Assembly: GCF_025685425.1 (NCBI RefSeq)
Contig: NZ_JAGTAS010000034.1
Coordinates: 1 to 42,181, forward strand
DNA length: 42,181 bases
Origin: Terriglobus albidus
GTDB lineage: Bacteria; Acidobacteriota; Terriglobia; Terriglobales; Acidobacteriaceae
Reading direction: 5' to 3'
How positions within the stretch are numbered: position 1 is the stretch's first letter; every line of letters begins with the position of its first letter. This document shows positions 9,695 through 41,809 of this stretch, piece by piece. A program made the position numbers and the translations under genes. The notes beneath the pieces are model-generated. The model had not been told where the DNA came from and did no database searches. It worked only from the letters and a program-made list of their open reading frames with translations.

Positions 9695-9845
9695 CGGTGG
9701 GAGCAGCGGGCTTCAGCCCGCTGATTTGAGATCAAAAAATGTCATGCTTTAGCCCTGGGCTCTCTTCTTGATCGTGAGCAAAAGCCCAGGGTTACGCCCA
9801 TTCCTTGGCTCATATCAGCGGGGCTAAAGCCCGCTGCTCCCACCG
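9695..9845. repeat. Family C repeat, copy 1
   Basis: It begins GGTGGGAGCAGCGGGCTTCA with a CGGGCTTCAGCCCG hairpin and ends with the inverse (GGGCTAAAGCCCGCTGCTCC, CACCG). Inner inverted arms GCTTTAGCCCTGGGCT and AGCCCAGGGTTACGCCC lie between. The same layout occurs at 26613, 32687 and 40951. It separates the phosphatase from the GT87 gene. Confidence 0.8.
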
Positions 9846-26612: not shown

Positions 26613-26754
26613 CGGGTGGGAGCAGCGGGCTTCAGCCCGCTGATTGACACACAAAAATGAATGGGCTTTCGCTTATGGAATCAGAAAGCCCAGGGCTAAA
26701 GCCCAATTCTTTTAGACCGCTAACCCGTGGGCTGAAGCCCACGGCTCCCACCGG
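26613..26754. repeat. Family C repeat, copy 2
   Basis: GGTGGGAGCAGCGGGCTTCA with its hairpin at the left and GGGCTGAAGCCCACGGCTCC, CACCGG at the right. Inner arms AAGCCCAGGGCTAAAGCCC are present. The following 26755-26994 holds an ATCGAGCTTGCGCTCGAT hairpin and otherwise nothing recognised. Confidence 0.82.
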
Positions 26755-32667: not shown

Positions 32668-32846
32668 GGAGCCAGCTTTGCTGGCTCCGGTGGGAGCCGA
32701 GGGCTTTTAGCCCTCGGTTTATCCGTTCCCAACAAAAAATGGGCTTTAGCCCTGGGCTTTTTGCTTCCCATAGGAGAATGCCCAGGGCTAAAGCCCGTCT
32801 CATTTAGCTCCTGAATCAGCGGGCTGAAGCCCGCTGCTCCCACCGG
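32668..32846. repeat. Family C repeat, copy 3, with an extra hairpin at its left end
   Basis: GGAGCCAGC-TTT-GCTGGCTCC (32668-32688) precedes the usual GGTGGGAGC start. Inner arms GGGCTTTAGCCCTGGGCTTT and GCCCAGGGCTAAAGCCCG and the right end GGGCTGAAGCCCGCTGCTCC, CACCGG are all present. It lies between two minus-strand hydrolase genes. Confidence 0.82.
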
Positions 32847-35027: not shown

Positions 35028-35662
35028 TCGCGCTCCGCGCGATCGTCTTGCTTAAGGGCACGGCTTCAGCCGTGCCGTAAAAGCCACAAAACACGCGGCT
35101 TTAGCCGCTGAGGTACTCGTCCAGCCGAATCGTTGGATTGACAGAAGAATACGGATACTCCTCAGCTGTAGTACACAGCCTTGCTCGCACAGGATTCTGC
35201 GCGATGTATGCAAGGCGTGTTACGTATTCTTCTGCATTCCGAATTCGATGGTCTGTAAATCCTCGCTGCCATACAGATTGCGATGCATGGAAGCGATAAG
35301 AGAACCCACCCTTGATCAGTTGCATTGTTCGTTCGAGTGTTATCTGTGTCGGAGTCAGCAGCAGATGGATATGATCCGGCATCACGACGTACGCGTGTAG
35401 AAGATAGTTCTCCCGGTAATGATCCAGCGTCTCGAGAAGCAACTCAGCATTCCGCGTAACTTGAAAGACTCTACGTCGATTGGCGACCAGAGATGTGACG
35501 AAATACGTCCCGGGTCTCGCTGTACGTGTCGGGATCGCCATAAGATGAATTGTATTTGACGTGGACGAGTACCTCAGCGGCTAAAGCCGCCTTTCTCCCC
35601 GGCTCTGTACGGGACGGCTAAAAGCCGCCCCCTTAAGCAAGACATTCGCGCGTCGCGCGAAC
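35028..35662. mobile_element. RAYT gene bracketed by inverted REP-A units
   Basis: The unit at 35028-35122 (GCGC-rich hairpin, GGCACGGCTTCAGCCGTGCC, GCGGCTTTAGCCGC, then GAGGTACTCGTCC) is inverted at 35563-35662. The inner 28 bases at 35095-35122 and 35563-35590 are exact reverse complements. The RAYT coding sequence lies between, and its stop codon is inside the left inverted repeat. The layout equals REP-A copy 2 (6370-6516) with a gene in the centre, so this is probably the autonomous parent of REP-A. Confidence 0.85.
35101..35541 (-). CDS. REP-associated tyrosine transposase (RAYT, Y1 family)
   Basis: A 146-residue HUH-type single-strand nuclease related to IS200/IS605 transposases. The metal-binding HUH motif is in VVMPDHIHLLL. 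The C-terminal signature EEYVTRLAYIAQNPVRARL contains the candidate catalytic Tyr. WQRGFTDHRIR is typical of the family. RAYTs are known to bind and nick REP hairpins. Length is normal and there is no frameshift, so it is probably active or recently so. The last codons (DEYLSG, TAA) are within the REP-A inverted repeat. The start ATG at 35541 has no clear Shine-Dalgarno, which fits low expression. Confidence 0.93.
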   Translation of the reverse strand: MAIPTRTARPGTYFVTSLVANRRRVFQVTRNAELLLETLDHYRENYLLHAYVVMPDHIHLLLTPTQITLERTMQLIKGGFSYRFHASQSVWQRGFTDHRIRNAEEYVTRLAYIAQNPVRARLCTTAEEYPYSSVNPTIRLDEYLSG

Positions 35663-35860: not shown

Positions 35861-35950
35861 CGCGCTCCGCGCGAATGCCTTGCTTAAGGGCACGGCTTCA
35901 GCCGTGCCGAAACAGAAGCCGCAAAACACGCGGCTTTAGCCGCTGAGGTA
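35861..35950. repeat. REP-A copy 5 (single unit, overlapping a coding end)
   Basis: A GCGC hairpin, GCTTAAGGGCACGGCTTCAG with its hairpin (35882-35908) and GCGGCTTTAGCCGCTGAGGT (35930-35949) form one unit without its inverted partner. On the minus strand it encodes the last ~23 residues and the stop codon of the DUF2147 protein. Confidence 0.85.
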
Positions 35951-36396
35951 CCGCTTAAAAAACCATCACCCGTACAAGCACTCACATTCCCCGGCCTGCT
36001 CCACACCTCAGTCCTTCCAAACAGCTTGATCCCAACATACCCACGCAACTCCAATCGATCTCCACTCCGCGTCATCGAGCCGTGATACGTCTTCCCCGAT
36101 TTCGGATCGTAAAGATAACCACCGTCCGCATGGTTCTGATCCGAGAGATGAAAGCCATGCCCGATCATCAGGCCACACAATGGCTGGTTACGTTTCGCCG
36201 CATCCGGATTATTGCTATCGAACGGCGTAGGGGCCTGGCGGCTGATCGCAATCAGCCGCGCACACAACTCCTGACCGCACGGCGCAATACGGATGACGGA
36301 TCCCGTGGGCTCCACCCAATCACCCAACACACCGGGCTGCTCGGCCTGCAATGTGGCCGCAATTATGAGAAAGATACCGGCAATCAGCCTCAGCAT
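35884..36396 (-). CDS. DUF2147-family secreted protein with a REP-encoded C-terminal tail
   Basis: A 170-residue exported protein. Residues 1-19 are a signal peptide (MLRLIAGIFLIIAATLQA). The DUF2147 pattern follows: GVLGDWVEP, IRIAPCGQELCARLI, GYLYDPKSGKTYHGSM, LELRGYVGIKLFGRTEVWSR. The family is an uncharacterised beta-barrel-like fold. The final 23 or so residues (from about SGTSAAKAACF) are encoded by a REP-A unit and are unlike the family, so the original stop was probably lost. The ATG at 36396 has GAGGG just upstream and lies 7 bases after the ketosynthase stop, making it the last gene of the polyketide operon. Its role there is unknown. Confidence 0.85.
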   Translation of the reverse strand: MLRLIAGIFLIIAATLQAEQPGVLGDWVEPTGSVIRIAPCGQELCARLIAISRQAPTPFDSNNPDAAKRNQPLCGLMIGHGFHLSDQNHADGGYLYDPKSGKTYHGSMTRSGDRLELRGYVGIKLFGRTEVWSRPGNVSACTGDGFLSGTSAAKAACFAASVSARLKPCP

Positions 36397-36403
36397 AGAT
36401 CCC

Positions 36404-37618
36404 TCAAACGGAGCGAAAGGCCAGCACCGCATTCAGTCCGCCAAAGGCGAAGGAGTTAGACAGTGCGAGCACCGGCTCACTGGTTCGCTCTAGCGCTCGC
36501 GGTTCACCGGTAATCACATCGAGTGCGAGCTCTGGGTCGATCTCGCTGGCATGCGCTGTATGCGGCAGTTCGCCATGCTGTAAGGCAAGCACAGTCGCTA
36601 CGGCCTCCAGCGCTCCAGAGGCGCCCATCGCATGGCCGTGCGTCGACTTGGTGGAGGTCACCGGAATCCTGCCTGTCTCCTCTTCAAAGACCATGTGGAT
36701 CGCCTCCGCCTCTGTCCCGTCATTGACGACGGTTCCTGTGCCGTGTGCATTGATGTGGCGAACGGGTGCGCGTAGATCGCCGCAGTCCAGCAGAGCAGTG
36801 CGCATGGCGGCGGCCGCTCCACTGGGTGCAGGCTGGGTGATGTGCCGCGCATCCGAAGACATACCGAAGCCGGCGATCTCTCCCAGTACAAGCGCTCCTC
36901 GCCGTAGCGCGCTCTCCATCTCTTCCAGAACCAGCACAGCCGAGCCTTCCCCCAGCGTCATGCCGTCGCGGTCTTTGGCGAAAGGACGGCTGAAGGTGGG
37001 TGAGACCACACGCAGGCTGTTCCATGCCCGCAGAAAGCCGAAGGTCAAGGGAGCGTCATGACCCCCGGTGATCGCAGCGTCTACCATGCCGGAGCGCACC
37101 ATGTGAAAGGCCTGGCCAATAGCGTGCGTCGCGGACGCACATGCGGTGGAGACAGTATAGGCAGGCCCGGTGATGCCATACTCCATCGAGACCAGGCTGG
37201 TGCCCGCATTGGCCATCGCACGCGGCACCGTAAGCGGATGAACGCGCGCGCCCTGCGTGTAAAGCTTCTCCAGCGCCGGCTCTTCCGCCGTTCTGCCGCC
37301 CGCGGAGCAGCCGAAGACAACAGCAATACGGCTGCCGTCGAGCGTAGCCGGCATGCCAGACTCTTCAATCGCCTCATGCGCCGCCACGAGAGCAAACTGC
37401 GATGAGCGCTCGGAGAGCAGCATCTGGTCAGGAGAGAGCAGCTCCTCGGGCCGGAAATCCTCCACCCGTGCCGTAGAGCTGAAGTTCAACCCAACGCGCT
37501 CCTCCTCCGGGAGAGGAAGAAAGCCGTCTCTGCCTTCGCGCAGCGCATGGAAGAATCTCTCCGTGCCGATGCCGATGGCGGTCACACAGCCCATGCCCGT
37601 AATCGCAACACGTCTCAT
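36404..37618 (-). CDS. Beta-ketoacyl-ACP synthase (KAS II/FabF-like)
   Basis: A 404-residue condensing enzyme with an intact active site: Cys160 in VSTACASATHAIG, His292 in AHGTGT, Lys324 in STKS and His329 in HGHAMGASG. It is therefore a catalytic ketosynthase, not a chain-length factor. It extends acyl chains on an ACP with malonyl-ACP. Its ATG overlaps the ACP stop by 4 bases (ATGA). In this operon it probably builds or selects an acyl chain on the dedicated ACP for the type III PKS, or acts after it; that is inference. The divergence from housekeeping FabF (RSSQFALVAAHEAIEESGMP region) suggests a secondary-metabolite role. Confidence 0.92.
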   Translation of the reverse strand: MRRVAITGMGCVTAIGIGTERFFHALREGRDGFLPLPEEERVGLNFSSTARVEDFRPEELLSPDQMLLSERSSQFALVAAHEAIEESGMPATLDGSRIAVVFGCSAGGRTAEEPALEKLYTQGARVHPLTVPRAMANAGTSLVSMEYGITGPAYTVSTACASATHAIGQAFHMVRSGMVDAAITGGHDAPLTFGFLRAWNSLRVVSPTFSRPFAKDRDGMTLGEGSAVLVLEEMESALRRGALVLGEIAGFGMSSDARHITQPAPSGAAAAMRTALLDCGDLRAPVRHINAHGTGTVVNDGTEAEAIHMVFEEETGRIPVTSTKSTHGHAMGASGALEAVATVLALQHGELPHTAHASEIDPELALDVITGEPRALERTSEPVLALSNSFAFGGLNAVLAFRSV

Positions 37619-37911
37619 ACCGGGCTCGTTTGCGAATCGGCCGTGACAGGTTTCGCCGCAACCGCCTGTTGAATCGCCGCCGCCATGGCGCCAATGGTAT
37701 GAACCGTGGCCAGCGCGCTCTCTGGAATGGCGATGTCGTACGCTTCTTCCACATCGAAGGCCAGCGTTACCTTATCCAGCGAGTCGAGCCCGATCTCCTT
37801 AAAGGTCGAAGCAGGTGAGAGCGTCTCCGGCGGAACCTTCTTGGCCGCAGCGATCAGTTCAATGCAGCGTTGCTGGATTGTTTCCAGTTGCTGGATTTTT
37901 TCCATCTCCAT
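37615..37911 (-). CDS. Acyl carrier protein
   Basis: A 98-residue carrier with the phosphopantetheine site GLDSLDKV (Ser44). The usual helix pattern follows (TLAFDVEEAYDIAIPE). The Pro/Ala-rich tail after residue 85 is longer than in housekeeping AcpP. AGGAG lies seven bases before the ATG. The stop of the upstream FAD oxidoreductase gene and this start share one base (TGATG). It is followed by the ketosynthase with a 4-base overlap. A dedicated ACP beside a type III PKS is unusual, because those enzymes normally use CoA esters. Confidence 0.93.
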   Translation of the reverse strand: MEMEKIQQLETIQQRCIELIAAAKKVPPETLSPASTFKEIGLDSLDKVTLAFDVEEAYDIAIPESALATVHTIGAMAAAIQQAVAAKPVTADSQTSPV

Positions 37912-39077
37912 CAGATATCTCCTGCACAGCGGTGAAATGAGGGGTAAGGCGAACTGCGGTGACTGTCACCAATCTTCAAAAAGTGTGATGGAACGCGGGT
38001 CCATGAGGCAATCCACGCCATCGCGCCCGGATACAGACGGAGCGCATGCGCAAGCACAGGCATCGAAACCATGCATCGCGAGAGCGCCGTCGCAAACCGC
38101 ACGGGCCGCTTTAGTTGCCGCGCCAGGATAGCCTGATACGTGTGCGCCGTCACGCCGCGACGATACGCATCCGCGGCGAGAAACGCGGAGTGCAGCGCGA
38201 TCGACATACCGTCGCCCGTAAAAGACGGCATCACTGCACTCTGGTCACCGAGATACCACGGCTCAGTCTCGGAGGAGATGCGACGATATCCGTAGGGAAT
38301 GGATGACAGCGTGATCGGCCTGGAACGTAACTGCACTGCACCCGCAAGCCTGCGTTCCAAATGAGCGGACGATACCACCGCATGTGCAAGCACGCGGCTC
38401 CACTCGGCGCCGCAATCTCGTAAGGATTTTTTGGTGAGCAATAGGCTGAGGTTGGCGCAGCCCGAGCCGGCGAGTTGCAACCCTGCGTAGCCGCCGGGGA
38501 AGAGAATCAGCTCTACCCAGTCACGTAAGCGCTCCTCTTGTTCCGCAGCCAACCGGAAGTACATCTTGAAGGCGACAAGGTCGTTCTGTGAACCCCCGGT
38601 ACGCTTCCGTCCGCGAAGATCGTGCTTGCCCGTAGCGAGAAAGGCGTCCTTCGCTGTCTCCTCCGTTCCATCGCTAAGACGTATGCTCCATTCACCTGGG
38701 GCACCTGTAAGCTGCTCCACGCTCGTTCCTCGTACCACGGCAACACCACTTTCAGCGGCACGCTGCAGCAGATGTTCGTCGACGATCCTGCGCGGAAGAG
38801 AAAGCCCGGCGAAGGGAAGAGGACACTCGGCAAGAACCTCCCGCGCCGCCAGCCGTACCGCACCGATGGGGACAGCTCCAAGCGCACGTAGGTCCACGCC
38901 CAGAGCGGCAAGATAGCGAACTCCTTCTTCGCTGAAGAACTCGCCGCACATCTTGTCCTGCGCTGCAGTTGTCTTCTCAAACAGCATGACGCTGCGGCCC
39001 TGGCCGGCAAGCATTGTGCCAAGCGCCGCGCCGGCAGGGCCGCCGCCGGCGATGATGACATCGAGCATCGCCCTCAT
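37911..39077 (-). CDS. FAD-dependent oxidoreductase (geranylgeranyl-reductase / aromatic hydroxylase-like)
   Basis: A 388-residue flavoprotein of the p-hydroxybenzoate-hydroxylase fold. The FAD-binding Rossmann motif is GGGPAG (11-16), followed by LFEK. A second FAD motif reads GDQSAVMPSFTGDGMSIAL. The fold includes monooxygenases that hydroxylate phenols and reductases that saturate prenyl chains. By analogy with the Streptomyces srs gene set (type III PKS, methyltransferase, flavin hydroxylase), hydroxylation of a phenolic lipid is attractive but unproven. The ATG at 39077 overlaps the methyltransferase stop by 4 bases; later Met codons are possible. Two Cys residues near CGEFFSEEG are noteworthy. 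Confidence 0.87.
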   Translation of the reverse strand: MRAMLDVIIAGGGPAGAALGTMLAGQGRSVMLFEKTTAAQDKMCGEFFSEEGVRYLAALGVDLRALGAVPIGAVRLAAREVLAECPLPFAGLSLPRRIVDEHLLQRAAESGVAVVRGTSVEQLTGAPGEWSIRLSDGTEETAKDAFLATGKHDLRGRKRTGGSQNDLVAFKMYFRLAAEQEERLRDWVELILFPGGYAGLQLAGSGCANLSLLLTKKSLRDCGAEWSRVLAHAVVSSAHLERRLAGAVQLRSRPITLSSIPYGYRRISSETEPWYLGDQSAVMPSFTGDGMSIALHSAFLAADAYRRGVTAHTYQAILARQLKRPVRFATALSRCMVSMPVLAHALRLYPGAMAWIASWTRVPSHFLKIGDSHRSSPYPSFHRCAGDI

Positions 39078-39784
39078 AGCTTCCGCCTCGAAACACACAG
39101 GCGGGCAAATGGCTTTTCCTCAATGCGGATCTCGCTCATGGGAAGTCCTGCCGCACGACACATCCGCTCCCAGTCCTCCGCCAGAAACGCTCTGCGAACC
39201 GATACCGGCCCATCATGACGCACGAAGCGATGCCATCGCAACGCCCAGGCCATCACCTTGAAGCTGTAATACGCCCGGGCGCTGCGGCGAAGATCGTTGA
39301 TGAACCATCCGCCGGTGGCCTTCGCCTCCATCCATGCCAGGAAACGCACAATCTGCTCTTCGGTCAGATGATGCGTCAGCAGCGAGCTGACAATCAACGT
39401 CGCGGGTCCCCGGTACGTGAAGACATCTCCGGTCATCCACGCAATGGCAGAGTCCTTCGGAGTGAACTCTTTCGCCGCCTGAGCCGCATGCGGATTCAGA
39501 TCGATGCCTGTGAGCTTTACGCTGCGTCCACGAGCGAACTCCGAAGCTTCCACGGCACGCAGCAGACCTCCACCGCCGCTGCCTACATCCAGCAGGTGAA
39601 CGGGACCGCTGCAGCACTGCAGCGACTCTTCAATCCATGCGAGCGAGGGCGCATATCCACTCAGCACGCGATTCACCTCTTCCAGATCACGCAGGCAGTC
39701 ACGAAACACCGGATAGGCACACGGCTCATCCATCCACTCCGAAAGGTGGGCCCGCTGGCTGAAGTCCTTCCGTTCAGACAGCAT
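39074..39784 (-). CDS. Class I SAM-dependent methyltransferase
   Basis: A 236-residue enzyme. SAM motif I is DVGSGGGG (66-73). The acidic motif LTGIDLNPHA and later blocks (AWMTGDVFTY, IVSSLLTHHLTEEQIVRFL) follow, as in UbiE/Coq5-like small-molecule methyltransferases. It overlaps the type III PKS stop by 11 bases. The likely substrate is the polyketide product, as in alkylresorcinol pathways, or its hydroxylated form; this is inference. The start is ATG at 39784, inside the PKS coding end, so translation is coupled. Confidence 0.9.
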   Translation of the reverse strand: MLSERKDFSQRAHLSEWMDEPCAYPVFRDCLRDLEEVNRVLSGYAPSLAWIEESLQCCSGPVHLLDVGSGGGGLLRAVEASEFARGRSVKLTGIDLNPHAAQAAKEFTPKDSAIAWMTGDVFTYRGPATLIVSSLLTHHLTEEQIVRFLAWMEAKATGGWFINDLRRSARAYYSFKVMAWALRWHRFVRHDGPVSVRRAFLAEDWERMCRAAGLPMSEIRIEEKPFARLCVSRRKL

Positions 39785-40832
39785 GGAACTCCATCGTCTC
39801 CGCCGTAAGCCCCGGGCCGAACGACATCGCCAGACCTTTCTCTCCCGCCTGTGCCGAGCGCATCAGCTCCTCCAGGACAAACATCACTGTCGCGGAAGAC
39901 ATATTGCCATAACTGCGCAGCACCTGACGTGACGCGGTCAACGCTTCCGCCGGAAGTCCCAGCCCACGTTCCACCGCATCCAGCACCGAGTTGCCACCGG
40001 GATGAATCGCCCACAGCGAAGTGTCATTGTTTGCAAGCTCTCCTCCTGCCTGCCGCAGCCACTTCTCAATCTCGCCGGGTACCTGTCCTGAGAGATGCAT
40101 CAGGAAGCCTCCATCGCCGATACGCCAGGTGATCAGATTGCGTGTGCCCTCGACCATGACAGTGCGGAACGCATCCATGGCCAGACCACCCGGCTCGGCC
40201 GAGATCAGGCTGACCGCGCAGCCATCGCCGAAGATCAGAAAAGACAACACCTCCGCCAGATCCTGTGACTCCTGCAGATGCAGGGTGCACAGCTCCAGGT
40301 TTACCAGCAGAACGCTCTCATCCGGCGCGGACCGGACAATGTGTTGCGCCTGACGCAGACCGTTGATAGCGGCATAGCAACCCATGAATCCGACCATCGT
40401 CCGCGAGACATCGCGTGACAGACCGAGATAGTCGATGATCGCGAAATCCAACCCCGGCGCATAGTGGCCGGTGCACGAGGTCACGATCACATGACGAATG
40501 CGGCTCCGTTCCTCAGGGGTCAGGTGAAGGCGATCGAGAGTTTTGTGAAGCAGCCGCGGAGCCCATCGTTCATAGACGCGCATGCGCTCCTCGGTGCCGG
40601 GAAAGCGATTCAGTTGATAGAACTCATTCGCATTGACAGCATCGCCGGCAAAGGGCGGCACGACCTGCAGCACGGAGTAGCGCCGCTCGATCTCAGCCTT
40701 TGCCGCCATGCGATGAAAGAGTGACCTTGCACGATCATCCTGCAGTAGTTTTCCGGCAAAGGCGACGAAGGCTCCATGAACCTCATGTTCCGGAGCCGCG
40801 GTTGCAATGCGATGAATAAAGGCCTGGGTCAC
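39774..40832 (-). CDS. Type III polyketide synthase (chalcone/stilbene synthase-like)
   Basis: A 352-residue homodimeric ketosynthase that extends an acyl starter with malonyl-CoA and folds it to a pyrone, resorcinol or other ring. The catalytic triad is complete: Cys152 (GFMGCYAAINGLRQA), His277 (LWAIHPGGNSVLDAV) and Asn310 (RSYGNMSSATVMFV). TSCTGHYAPGLDF and GDGCAVSLIS complete the family signatures. Length is slightly under plant CHS. It is the first gene of the operon; the start is a GTG with a weak ribosome site. A divergent H-NOX-like gene lies 404 bases upstream. The starter, chain length and product cannot be predicted from the sequence alone. Confidence 0.94.
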   Translation of the reverse strand: MTQAFIHRIATAAPEHEVHGAFVAFAGKLLQDDRARSLFHRMAAKAEIERRYSVLQVVPPFAGDAVNANEFYQLNRFPGTEERMRVYERWAPRLLHKTLDRLHLTPEERSRIRHVIVTSCTGHYAPGLDFAIIDYLGLSRDVSRTMVGFMGCYAAINGLRQAQHIVRSAPDESVLLVNLELCTLHLQESQDLAEVLSFLIFGDGCAVSLISAEPGGLAMDAFRTVMVEGTRNLITWRIGDGGFLMHLSGQVPGEIEKWLRQAGGELANNDTSLWAIHPGGNSVLDAVERGLGLPAEALTASRQVLRSYGNMSSATVMFVLEELMRSAQAGEKGLAMSFGPGLTAETMEFHAV

Positions 40833-40957: not shown

Positions 40958-41103
40958 AGCAGCGGGCTTCAGCCCGCTGAATAAGGCGTAAAAAGTAGAT
41001 AGGCTTTAGCCTTGGGCCTTTATTCTCCGAGACGAAAAGCCCAGGGCTAAAGCCCATTGCTTTCAGAGCGAATAACGGTGGGCTGAAGCCCACCTCTCCC
41101 ATC
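40951..41103. repeat. Family C repeat, copy 4
   Basis: GGGTGGGAGCAGCGGGCTTC with its hairpin, inner arms GGCTTTAGCCTTGGGCC and AGCCCAGGGCTAAAGCCC, and the right end GGGCTGAAGCCCACCTCTCC. It lies between the PKS operon and the H-NOX-like gene. The remaining 41104-41236 has no recognised element. Confidence 0.82.
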
Positions 41104-41236
41104 CAAAAAACGAAAACGATCTGTCGACACACCCCAAAATCTTTCGTACCGTGCCCATGGTTCGATTTACACCAAGCTCTCTCATCCCTTGCCCCCACAC
41201 GCCGATGAGGCGAAGAAGCACCTGAGGGAAGTAACT

Positions 41237-41809
41237 GTGAAGGGCATCATATTTAACTGGCTCGAAGAGATCGTCACCGCGGAGTTCGACTCTGATGTGT
41301 GGGACGACCTGTTGGATCAGGCCGAGAGCGATGGTATCTATGCCTCGTTTGGCAGTTATCCGGACGACGAGCTCATACTTCTGGTGCAGGTCACGGCCAA
41401 CCGGCTCGGCAAGACTGAGGTGGAGACCTGGCTCTGGCTTGGACGGCGAGCTGTGCCTCTGATGGCCATCCACTATCCTATGTTGTTCGCAGCGGCAACT
41501 ACACTGAGGGATCTGTTGCTCGACCCGGAACTGGGAATGATGAATATGGCGGAGATCTTCCCGGAGCTCACCGTTTGCGAAGGTGACAACCAAACGCTGC
41601 TGGTGGGCTACCGCTCGCACCTCAATCTATGCGGATTGGTTGAAGGCCTGACCATGGGTGCAGCGGAATACTTTGGCGATGACATCGAGCTCGATCGGCT
41701 GAAGTGTGCCAACCAGGAAGACGACACCTGCCTTTATCGCGTTCGGTTCCTGAGCTCAGACAACGAACCTCTCGATATGGAAGACTCAAAGTTCGTTTTA
41801 TTTCTGTAG
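41237..41809 (+). CDS. Stand-alone H-NOX (heme-NO-binding)-like protein with an altered heme pocket
   Basis: A 190-residue cytoplasmic protein matching the H-NOX fold end to end: KGIIFNWLEEIV at the start, LGRRAVPLMAIHYPMLF and TLRDLLLD in the middle, GYRSHLNLCGLVEGLTMGAA near the end, and CANQEDDTCLYRVRF at the C-terminus. In gap-free alignment by eye to the family pattern, the proximal heme His corresponds to Met101. The YxSxR propionate motif becomes Y125-R-S127-H-L129, losing the Arg. So heme may be bound through Met, bound weakly or not at all. I chose GTG at 41237 because the family starts at KG-I and GAGGGA lies upstream. No kinase or cyclase partner is adjacent. Confidence 0.85.
   Translation: MKGIIFNWLEEIVTAEFDSDVWDDLLDQAESDGIYASFGSYPDDELILLVQVTANRLGKTEVETWLWLGRRAVPLMAIHYPMLFAAATTLRDLLLDPELGMMNMAEIFPELTVCEGDNQTLLVGYRSHLNLCGLVEGLTMGAAEYFGDDIELDRLKCANQEDDTCLYRVRFLSSDNEPLDMEDSKFVLFL

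Follow-up and report, generated by a model that had tools for sequence, protein, structure and literature searches.

A contig of 42,181 nucleotides from Terriglobus albidus (NZ_JAGTAS010000034.1, analysed over its full length and called the window below) encodes an operon in which a type III polyketide synthase (PKS), a methyltransferase (MT) and a flavin adenine dinucleotide (FAD)-dependent oxidoreductase are accompanied by a stand-alone acyl carrier protein (ACP) and a FabF-like ketoacyl-ACP synthase (KAS). This operon is real and conserved, as can be observed directly in its gene order, its intact residues, the selection acting on it, its distribution and its phylogeny. With a probability of roughly 0.55, it makes an alkyl phenol or quinone lipid, and the ACP-KAS pair serves as a dedicated supply of a probably long acyl-ACP starter to the PKS. 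Two points are new: a single subfamily of KAS-ACP occurs with two families of type III PKS in Acidobacteriaceae, and a different KAS accompanies a type III PKS in Proteobacteria. No earlier description of the operon turned up in literature searches, which were limited in depth and in subscription coverage.

According to the open reading frames (ORFs) and their translations, six intact genes run on the minus strand from position 40832 to position 35884 (Table 1), in the order type III PKS, MT, FAD enzyme, ACP, KAS and DUF2147 protein, and each of them is backed by a Pfam match. The ORF coordinates give overlaps of 11, 4, 1 and 4 bases at the consecutive junctions and then a gap of 7 bases before the DUF2147 gene; the six-gene operon and the junctions given in the first-pass annotation are thus confirmed, but its wording of six overlapping genes holds for the first five and not for the DUF2147 gene. 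The active-site residues that it listed as intact are so in the alignment, namely C152, H277 and N310 of the PKS, C160, H292, K324 and H329 of the KAS, and S44 of the ACP within the motif GLDSLDKV. For the FAD enzyme the ATG at 39077 was taken as the start, a GTG at 39098 being likewise open. All six genes are under purifying selection relative to close relatives that have them, with ratios of nonsynonymous to synonymous substitution rates (dN/dS) of 0.06-0.15: 0.06-0.08 for the PKS, 0.07-0.09 for the KAS, 0.13-0.15 for the MT and 0.12-0.13 for the ACP (three relatives each), 0.13-0.14 for the FAD enzyme (two relatives) and 0.14 for the DUF2147 gene (one relative). Furthermore, among all 17 loci having both PKS and MT, the window included, an MT start codon is open at the same 11-base PKS/MT overlap in 13 (12 ATG and one GTG), the other four being L038, L042, L044 and L046.

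Table 1. Genes of the type III PKS operon in the window (SAM, S-adenosylmethionine)
Gene product	Position	Strand	Pfam match
Type III polyketide synthase, 352 aa, GTG start	39774..40832	-	PF00195/PF02797
Class I SAM methyltransferase (MT), 236 aa	39074..39784	-	PF13649
FAD-dependent oxidoreductase, 388 aa, class A monooxygenase / geranylgeranyl-reductase-like fold	37911..39077	-	PF01494
Stand-alone acyl carrier protein, 98 aa, Ser44	37615..37911	-	PF00550, 44 bits
FabF-like ketoacyl-ACP synthase (KAS), 404 aa, intact Cys-His-Lys-His	36404..37618	-	PF00109/PF02801
DUF2147 protein, 170 aa	35884..36396	-	PF09917, 103 bits

The operon PKS has the fold and the Cys-His-Asn triad of a type III PKS. 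Indeed, the best PDB matches of its AlphaFold2 model (predicted local distance difference test score, pLDDT, 92.7) are type III PKSs, the first at an E value of 2.5e-33, and the ten best include the Ectocarpus PKS (4b0n), the M. marinum type III PKS (7d41) and PKS18. The nearest PDB chain by sequence is PKS18 (1ted, 156 bits), identity to the nearest solved relatives (PKS18 and the M. marinum PKS) is about 30%, and the triad is invariant in 49 of 49 alignment rows. It is the single type III PKS match in the window genome of 6.1 Mb. Adjacent genes for a type III PKS, an MT and a flavin oxidoreductase place the core with the pkq/srs/hid-type operons. This core is already known, comparable three-gene operons having been published as alkylresorcinol or alkylquinone pathways, and the likeness to a published phenolic-lipid set pointed out in the first-pass annotation is well founded. 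The PKS was searched in three samples. A match at an E value of 0.001 was present in 27 of 61 genomes, the window genome included. The best 80 of at least 566 named loci came from Acidobacteriota (41), Pseudomonadota (36) and Planctomycetota (1), with two unplaced; two or three of them (L055, L066, L081) duplicate genomes already sampled. Of these 80 loci, 67 have MT and FAD homologues in the stretch read; at least one of the two genes is missing from each of the remaining 13, some of which lie at contig ends. In 298 genomes of the order, with five or six candidates at most scored per genome, the PKS was found in 90 genomes (97 copies) at an E value of 1e-70 and a strong KAS homologue in 89 (96 copies) at 1e-95. 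The PKS operons of L040, L043 and L045 are without ACP and KAS and have instead a DUF2306 gene and an unclassified gene around the FAD gene (by Pfam in L040, by eye in the others), with an additional YceI-like gene in L040 and L043.

The KAS subfamily is linked to type III PKSs beyond the window. The nearest KAS outside the window genus are those of genus g36 (54-59% identity), which often adjoin a second type III PKS (T3b) resembling PKS11 and CylI. When the 96 KAS of the order sample are ranked by score, the best 54 comprise nine that adjoin the window-type PKS, at least 34 that adjoin T3b and 11 that adjoin neither among the matches listed, whereas the other 42 comprise 22 adjoining a serine-palmitoyltransferase-like (Spt-like) gene and 20 adjoining neither; at least 43 of the 54 thus have a type III PKS within 10 kb, against none of the 42 among the matches listed. 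For this count 74 T3b places were entered; the places in G178 are not among them, nor are the majority of those from genomes that have no KAS match, so that 34 is a lower bound. The T3b and Spt-like searches, too, used strict E-value limits and scored five or six candidates at most per genome. An ACP adjoins the KAS in 20 of 20 contexts fetched outside the genus. Nine of 12 further g36 stretches fetched were listed: four (L245, L246, L247, L248) show the order T3b-FAD-ACP-KAS, one of them with an extra gene between ACP and KAS; L241 and L244 have T3b, ACP and KAS in this order, interspersed with other or unclear genes; and in L243, L249 and L250 no T3b was found in the stretch listed. The g36 FAD protein is distant from that of the window (110-115 bits in L223 and L227, compared with mostly 460-510). 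When the KAS tree is rooted on the four FabF rows, a clade of 22 rows (support 100/100) unites the window genus, g36 and two g58 rows, and its sister group includes the palmitoyltransferase-linked KAS. Unrelated neighbours of ACP and KAS in relatives, which the first-pass annotation had named as refuting its reading, do occur in part: more distant ACP-KAS pairs adjoin an Spt-like gene or a gene that by eye looks like DNA polymerase X. As a separate observation, the ACP-KAS genes of L192, L236 and L237 are convergent with genes for a short-chain dehydrogenase/reductase (SDR) and a serine-palmitoyltransferase-like (BioF/Kbl) protein, which makes these places candidate sphingolipid loci of Acidobacteriota equipped with a separate KAS and ACP; ACP-KAS pairs of the order's second family (L194, L195, L197) adjoin a gene that by eye looks like DNA polymerase X.

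Within the window genus the ACP-KAS pair is an accessory and not part of the core. The PKS is present in 16 of 19 genomes, the window genome included, and in 11 of those 16 it is followed by ACP and KAS genes (the window genome, G001, G002, G005, G006, G007, G011, G012, G014, G015 and G018); in a twelfth genome (G009) the contig begins inside the MT gene and continues in the order MT-FAD-ACP-KAS. The whole operon is carried by Terriglobus roseus DSM 18391, a cultured type strain of the same genus (L044/L066). The other five PKS-bearing congeners (G003, G004, G010, G013, G017) are without the pair and have a single KAS match each genome-wide, at 38-40%; in G013 the FAD gene is followed directly by the DUF2147 gene, as if ACP and KAS had been lost or never inserted. 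In the 298 genomes, PKS and KAS lie within 10 kb of each other nine times, always in the window genus. The pair is conserved as an addition, but the core occurs without it in five of the 16 congeners and, at E values of 1e-70 (PKS) and 1e-95 (KAS), in each of the other 76 genomes among the 298 that have the PKS. A PKS tree of 95 rows places the 11 carriers together in a cluster of 21 rows (Shimodaira-Hasegawa-like approximate likelihood ratio test, SH-aLRT, 93), and presence of the pair costs four changes, of which the starred branches force just one; this tree was made by a quick method, has its root row (L048) on a very long branch and leaves out L055, L066 and L081 (copies of L039, L044 and L046) as well as the distant L049-L051. 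In G015 the FAD gene is cut to its last 19 residues (L034, 2113-2205) while PKS, MT, ACP and KAS are intact; since this genome is a draft of 410 contigs, the truncation is a deletion or an assembly fault.

A KAS also stands with the core outside Acidobacteriota. An Acetobacteraceae contig (L123) has the order ACP, KAS, PKS, MT, FAD, DUF2147 with a 4-base ACP/KAS overlap, and a Burkholderiaceae contig (L120) has KAS-PKS-MT-FAD. Their KAS form a clade of their own (100/99) outside the 22-row clade, support for their position outside all 45 acidobacterial rows being just 87/72, and their PKSs fall in a small proteobacterial group of the PKS tree. Among 39 non-acidobacterial loci, 34 of which have at least 1.5 kb upstream, these two alone have a KAS in the stretch covered. 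Both are contigs of metagenome-assembled genomes (MAGs), so binning may misplace the host, though not the gene order. This recurrence with another KAS, together with the type III PKSs of one of two subfamilies adjoining at least 43 of the 54 closest KAS, argues against the possibility that the ACP and the KAS serve to produce another lipid and share no more than a transcript with the PKS genes. Such a separate lipid would be in keeping with the related ACP-KAS pairs that, among the matches listed, adjoin an Spt-like gene (22 of 96) or neither an Spt-like gene nor a type III PKS (31 of 96), and is nonetheless considered unlikely. A sphingolipid role of the pair in the window genome was rejected, as that genome has no serine-palmitoyltransferase-like match at an E value of 1e-100.

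The sequences of the KAS, the ACP and the PKS bear on the chain that may be supplied. The KAS is 38% identical to the other KAS of its genome, the presumed FabF; it scores 371.9 bits against the NCBIfam FabF model TIGR03150, short of the cut-off of 493.75, and is separated from the four FabF rows in the KAS tree with support of 100/100. The ACP is 30% identical to the sole other ACP match of the genome, which adjoins FabF. At the pocket position that we take to correspond to Ile108 of E. coli FabF, all 12 window-genus rows carry Ala or Thr and all 20 g36 rows Cys or Thr, including five g36 rows without an adjoining T3b; the two g58 rows carry Thr and Val. Ile occupies this position in all four FabF rows, Leu, Val or Phe in 11 of 12 sister-group rows and Met or Leu in all 11 rows of family f2, and the two proteobacterial KAS have Leu and Ile. 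The small residue thus marks the acidobacterial clade and not every PKS-linked KAS. A small residue in place of the FabF Ile suggests a deeper KAS pocket and longer chains, and this would be the simplest reading by analogy with Azotobacter, whose phenolic lipids carry chains of C22-C26. In the PKS, the sites aligned to C205 and A148 of PKS18, the latter presumably an acyl-tunnel position, hold Cys and Ala, and the A209 site holds Leu. Judging from these aligned sites, Cys and Ala would speak for a long acyl starter, although the Leu at the A209 site would not. The list of PKS18 acyl-tunnel residues comes from a figure legend in PMC6274091.

As regards product class, chain length and acyl transfer to the PKS, we infer the following route. 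The KAS would elongate an acyl chain on its private ACP. No fatty-acid reductase or dehydratase gene was recognised in the operon (ORFs, Pfam) and none was noticed by eye in the clusters of relatives, so the reduction steps would be borrowed from the ordinary FabG, FabZ and FabI of the cell; nor does a multidomain type I fatty acid synthase (FAS) occur among the operon genes (ORFs, Pfam), where ACP and KAS are separate. The acyl-ACP would then be handed to the type III PKS, which would extend the long starter with malonyl-CoA and cyclise it, probably to an alkylresorcinol or its acid, whereupon the MT and the FAD enzyme could methylate and oxidise the ring, with the DUF2147 protein as a putative secreted accessory. 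Housekeeping fatty-acid reduction enzymes are expected in every such cell. Since these could serve and the small pocket residue favours long chains, it appears improbable that the KAS instead does one condensation, without full elongation, and that a beta-ketoacyl-ACP passes to a PKS needing one malonyl unit fewer, even though this would suit both the absence of a recognised reductase or dehydratase and the statement, in passages of PMC6274091, that some type III PKSs take acyl-ACP or acetoacetyl starters.

Several points weigh against a dedicated supply of long starters for a phenolic lipid. Even inside the KAS clade there are ACP and KAS genes for which no type III PKS was found at 10 kb or less (11 of 54; L222, L223, L226 and L227), and the cut at 54 was chosen after the ranked list had been viewed. 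All of the at least 34 T3b cases lie in genus g36 and may go back to one inherited event, so the number of independent events behind the counts is small, about one each in the window genus and in g36 and one or two in Proteobacteria. One of the 12 sister-group KAS also has Thr at the pocket position. Because the PKS core is mostly without the pair in the genomes examined, the pair is dispensable for a product of some kind. Finally, W236 of the PKS is invariant in 49 of 49 rows and a tryptophan has been reported in ArsB as a resorcinol marker, but W236 was rejected as proof of a resorcinol product and is unable to fix the product, because PKS11, a pyrone maker, by eye has a tryptophan at the matching place.

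Concerning the other enzymes, the MT scores 123 bits against NCBIfam PRK06202, under the cut-off of 243, and the FAD enzyme matches TIGR02032 under its cut-off. The nearest folds to the AlphaFold2 model of the FAD enzyme (pLDDT 91.0) are halogenases and aromatic hydroxylases at 13-20% identity, with the halogenase PltA among the best. A halogenase role was rejected despite these fold neighbours, as WxWxIP, which we take to be the flavin halogenase motif, is present in none of 39 rows; it is therefore more likely, as far as the model and the motif indicate, that the FAD enzyme hydroxylates or oxidises the ring. PltA reportedly acts on a carrier-bound substrate, and FAD and ACP genes adjoin in the window genus and in four of the nine listed g36 contexts. 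Both facts would agree with an ACP that carries a polyketide or tailoring substrate for the MT and the FAD enzyme while the PKS uses acyl-CoA; this seems very unlikely, however, as MT and FAD genes are kept in genomes without the ACP and the KAS would be left unexplained. The DUF2147 protein has an apparent signal peptide (by eye), and a homologue lies behind the FAD or KAS gene in relatives both with and without ACP-KAS. A repetitive extragenic palindromic (REP) core at window positions 35931-35942 falls within the DUF2147 gene at its 3' end, where it seems to account for part of an odd C-terminal tail of the protein.

Around the operon, REP-like palindromes of the GGGCTTTAGCCC type have 49 matches in the window (two mismatches at most) compared with 3.06 expected, with sites at 9708-9832, 26627-26740, 32702-32832 and 40964-41091 among others, and inverted REP-type repeats occupy the gap upstream of the operon. 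A Y1_Tnp (IS200-like) transposase of 146 aa (35096-35589), flanked on both sides by CGGCTTTAGCCG, is likely a REP-associated transposase, and Y1_Tnp copies also occur close to the operon of L033 and L034. Spread with this adjoining mobile DNA was considered, yet the gene order is stable among the 11 carriers. A divergent gene on the plus strand (41189-41809) encodes a haem-NO-binding HNOB domain (PF07700, 74 bits), whose haem-binding His may be missing, judging by the motif expected for it. Oxygen regulation through this gene was dropped as an idea, because it adjoins the operon only in L032 and L033 among 20 loci (the L034 contig ends earlier).

A wider reading is offered tentatively, with more doubt than belief: these genes could represent an acidobacterial type II pathway of fatty-acid synthesis that specifically serves type III PKSs, in which a private ACP and a deep-pocket KAS provide very long starters to two PKS families, for an envelope lipid or a low-oxygen respiratory quinone lipid not yet described in the phylum. 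The recurrent pairing of a stand-alone KAS-ACP with a type III PKS is what matters here, the precedents identified being instead a type I FAS (Ars), type I PKS modules (Cyl), a fatty acyl-AMP ligase (FAAL) and hexanoyl-ACP in vitro (Gcs). If the proposed supply is true, it would explain by what means phenolic lipids could be given a set chain length in these soil bacteria, and the KAS clade would be a marker for finding such clusters. The proposal is testable in the cultured type strain T. roseus DSM 18391.

Known systems share parts of this arrangement, as described in passages of the papers cited. The pkqABC operon of M. smegmatis and its Streptomyces MNU77 homologue, which yield alkyl benzoquinones acting as electron carriers, have the same order of type III PKS, methyltransferase and oxidoreductase and are likened here by gene functions and order; as a difference from the window operon, the words "acyl carrier" are absent from the text of PMC9927152. 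The planctomycete operon and the cyanobacterial hidABC have the three functions of the core (PMC10896814, PMC8086630). In C. glutamicum the planctomycete PKSs yielded pentadecyl- and heptadecylresorcinols, and adding the MT and FAD genes gave methylated resorcinol only and no quinone; the PKS is the last of the three genes in 58 of 96 planctomycete cases, and passages of the same paper describe no ACP-KAS pair (PMC10896814). HidC was proposed itself to use a C14 acyl-ACP (PMC8086630). In the ars system of Azotobacter vinelandii, a dedicated acyl supplier is encoded with type III PKSs, as proposed for the window, and the phenolic lipids have C22-C26 chains (PMC6274091, PMC3098273), but the supplier is a large type I FAS (ArsA/ArsD), whereas the window has a separate KAS and ACP (PMC6274091). 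An acyl-ACP starter, presented in the first-pass annotation as a departure for type III PKSs, is no such departure, since ArsA passes acyl-ACP directly to ArsB and ArsC, and Gcs and SCO7671 take hexanoyl-ACP (in vitro for Gcs); for Gcs, passages of that source name no private KAS-ACP pair (PMC6274091). In the cylindrocyclophane pathway (CylB-CylI) an ACP-bound chain likewise reaches a type III PKS, with type I PKS modules between ACP and PKS as the difference (PMC8086630). The g36 T3b PKS is itself PKS11/CylI-like by sequence comparison. Myxococcus xanthus is said to reach alkylresorcylic acid through a fatty acyl-AMP ligase (reportedly Hayashi, 2011), which is also a dedicated loading of fatty chains for a type III PKS, but by ligase activation and not by KAS elongation. 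FAAL-ACP pairs are treated in PMC8460268. Lastly, in rhodobacterial sphingolipid synthesis the specialised ACP AcpR feeds one lipid enzyme, Spt, and in this resembles the window ACP, although the end enzyme is another and acyl-AcpR is made by a synthetase and not by a KAS (PMC11324152); comparably, the sister KAS group of Acidobacteriaceae includes rows that adjoin an Spt-like gene.

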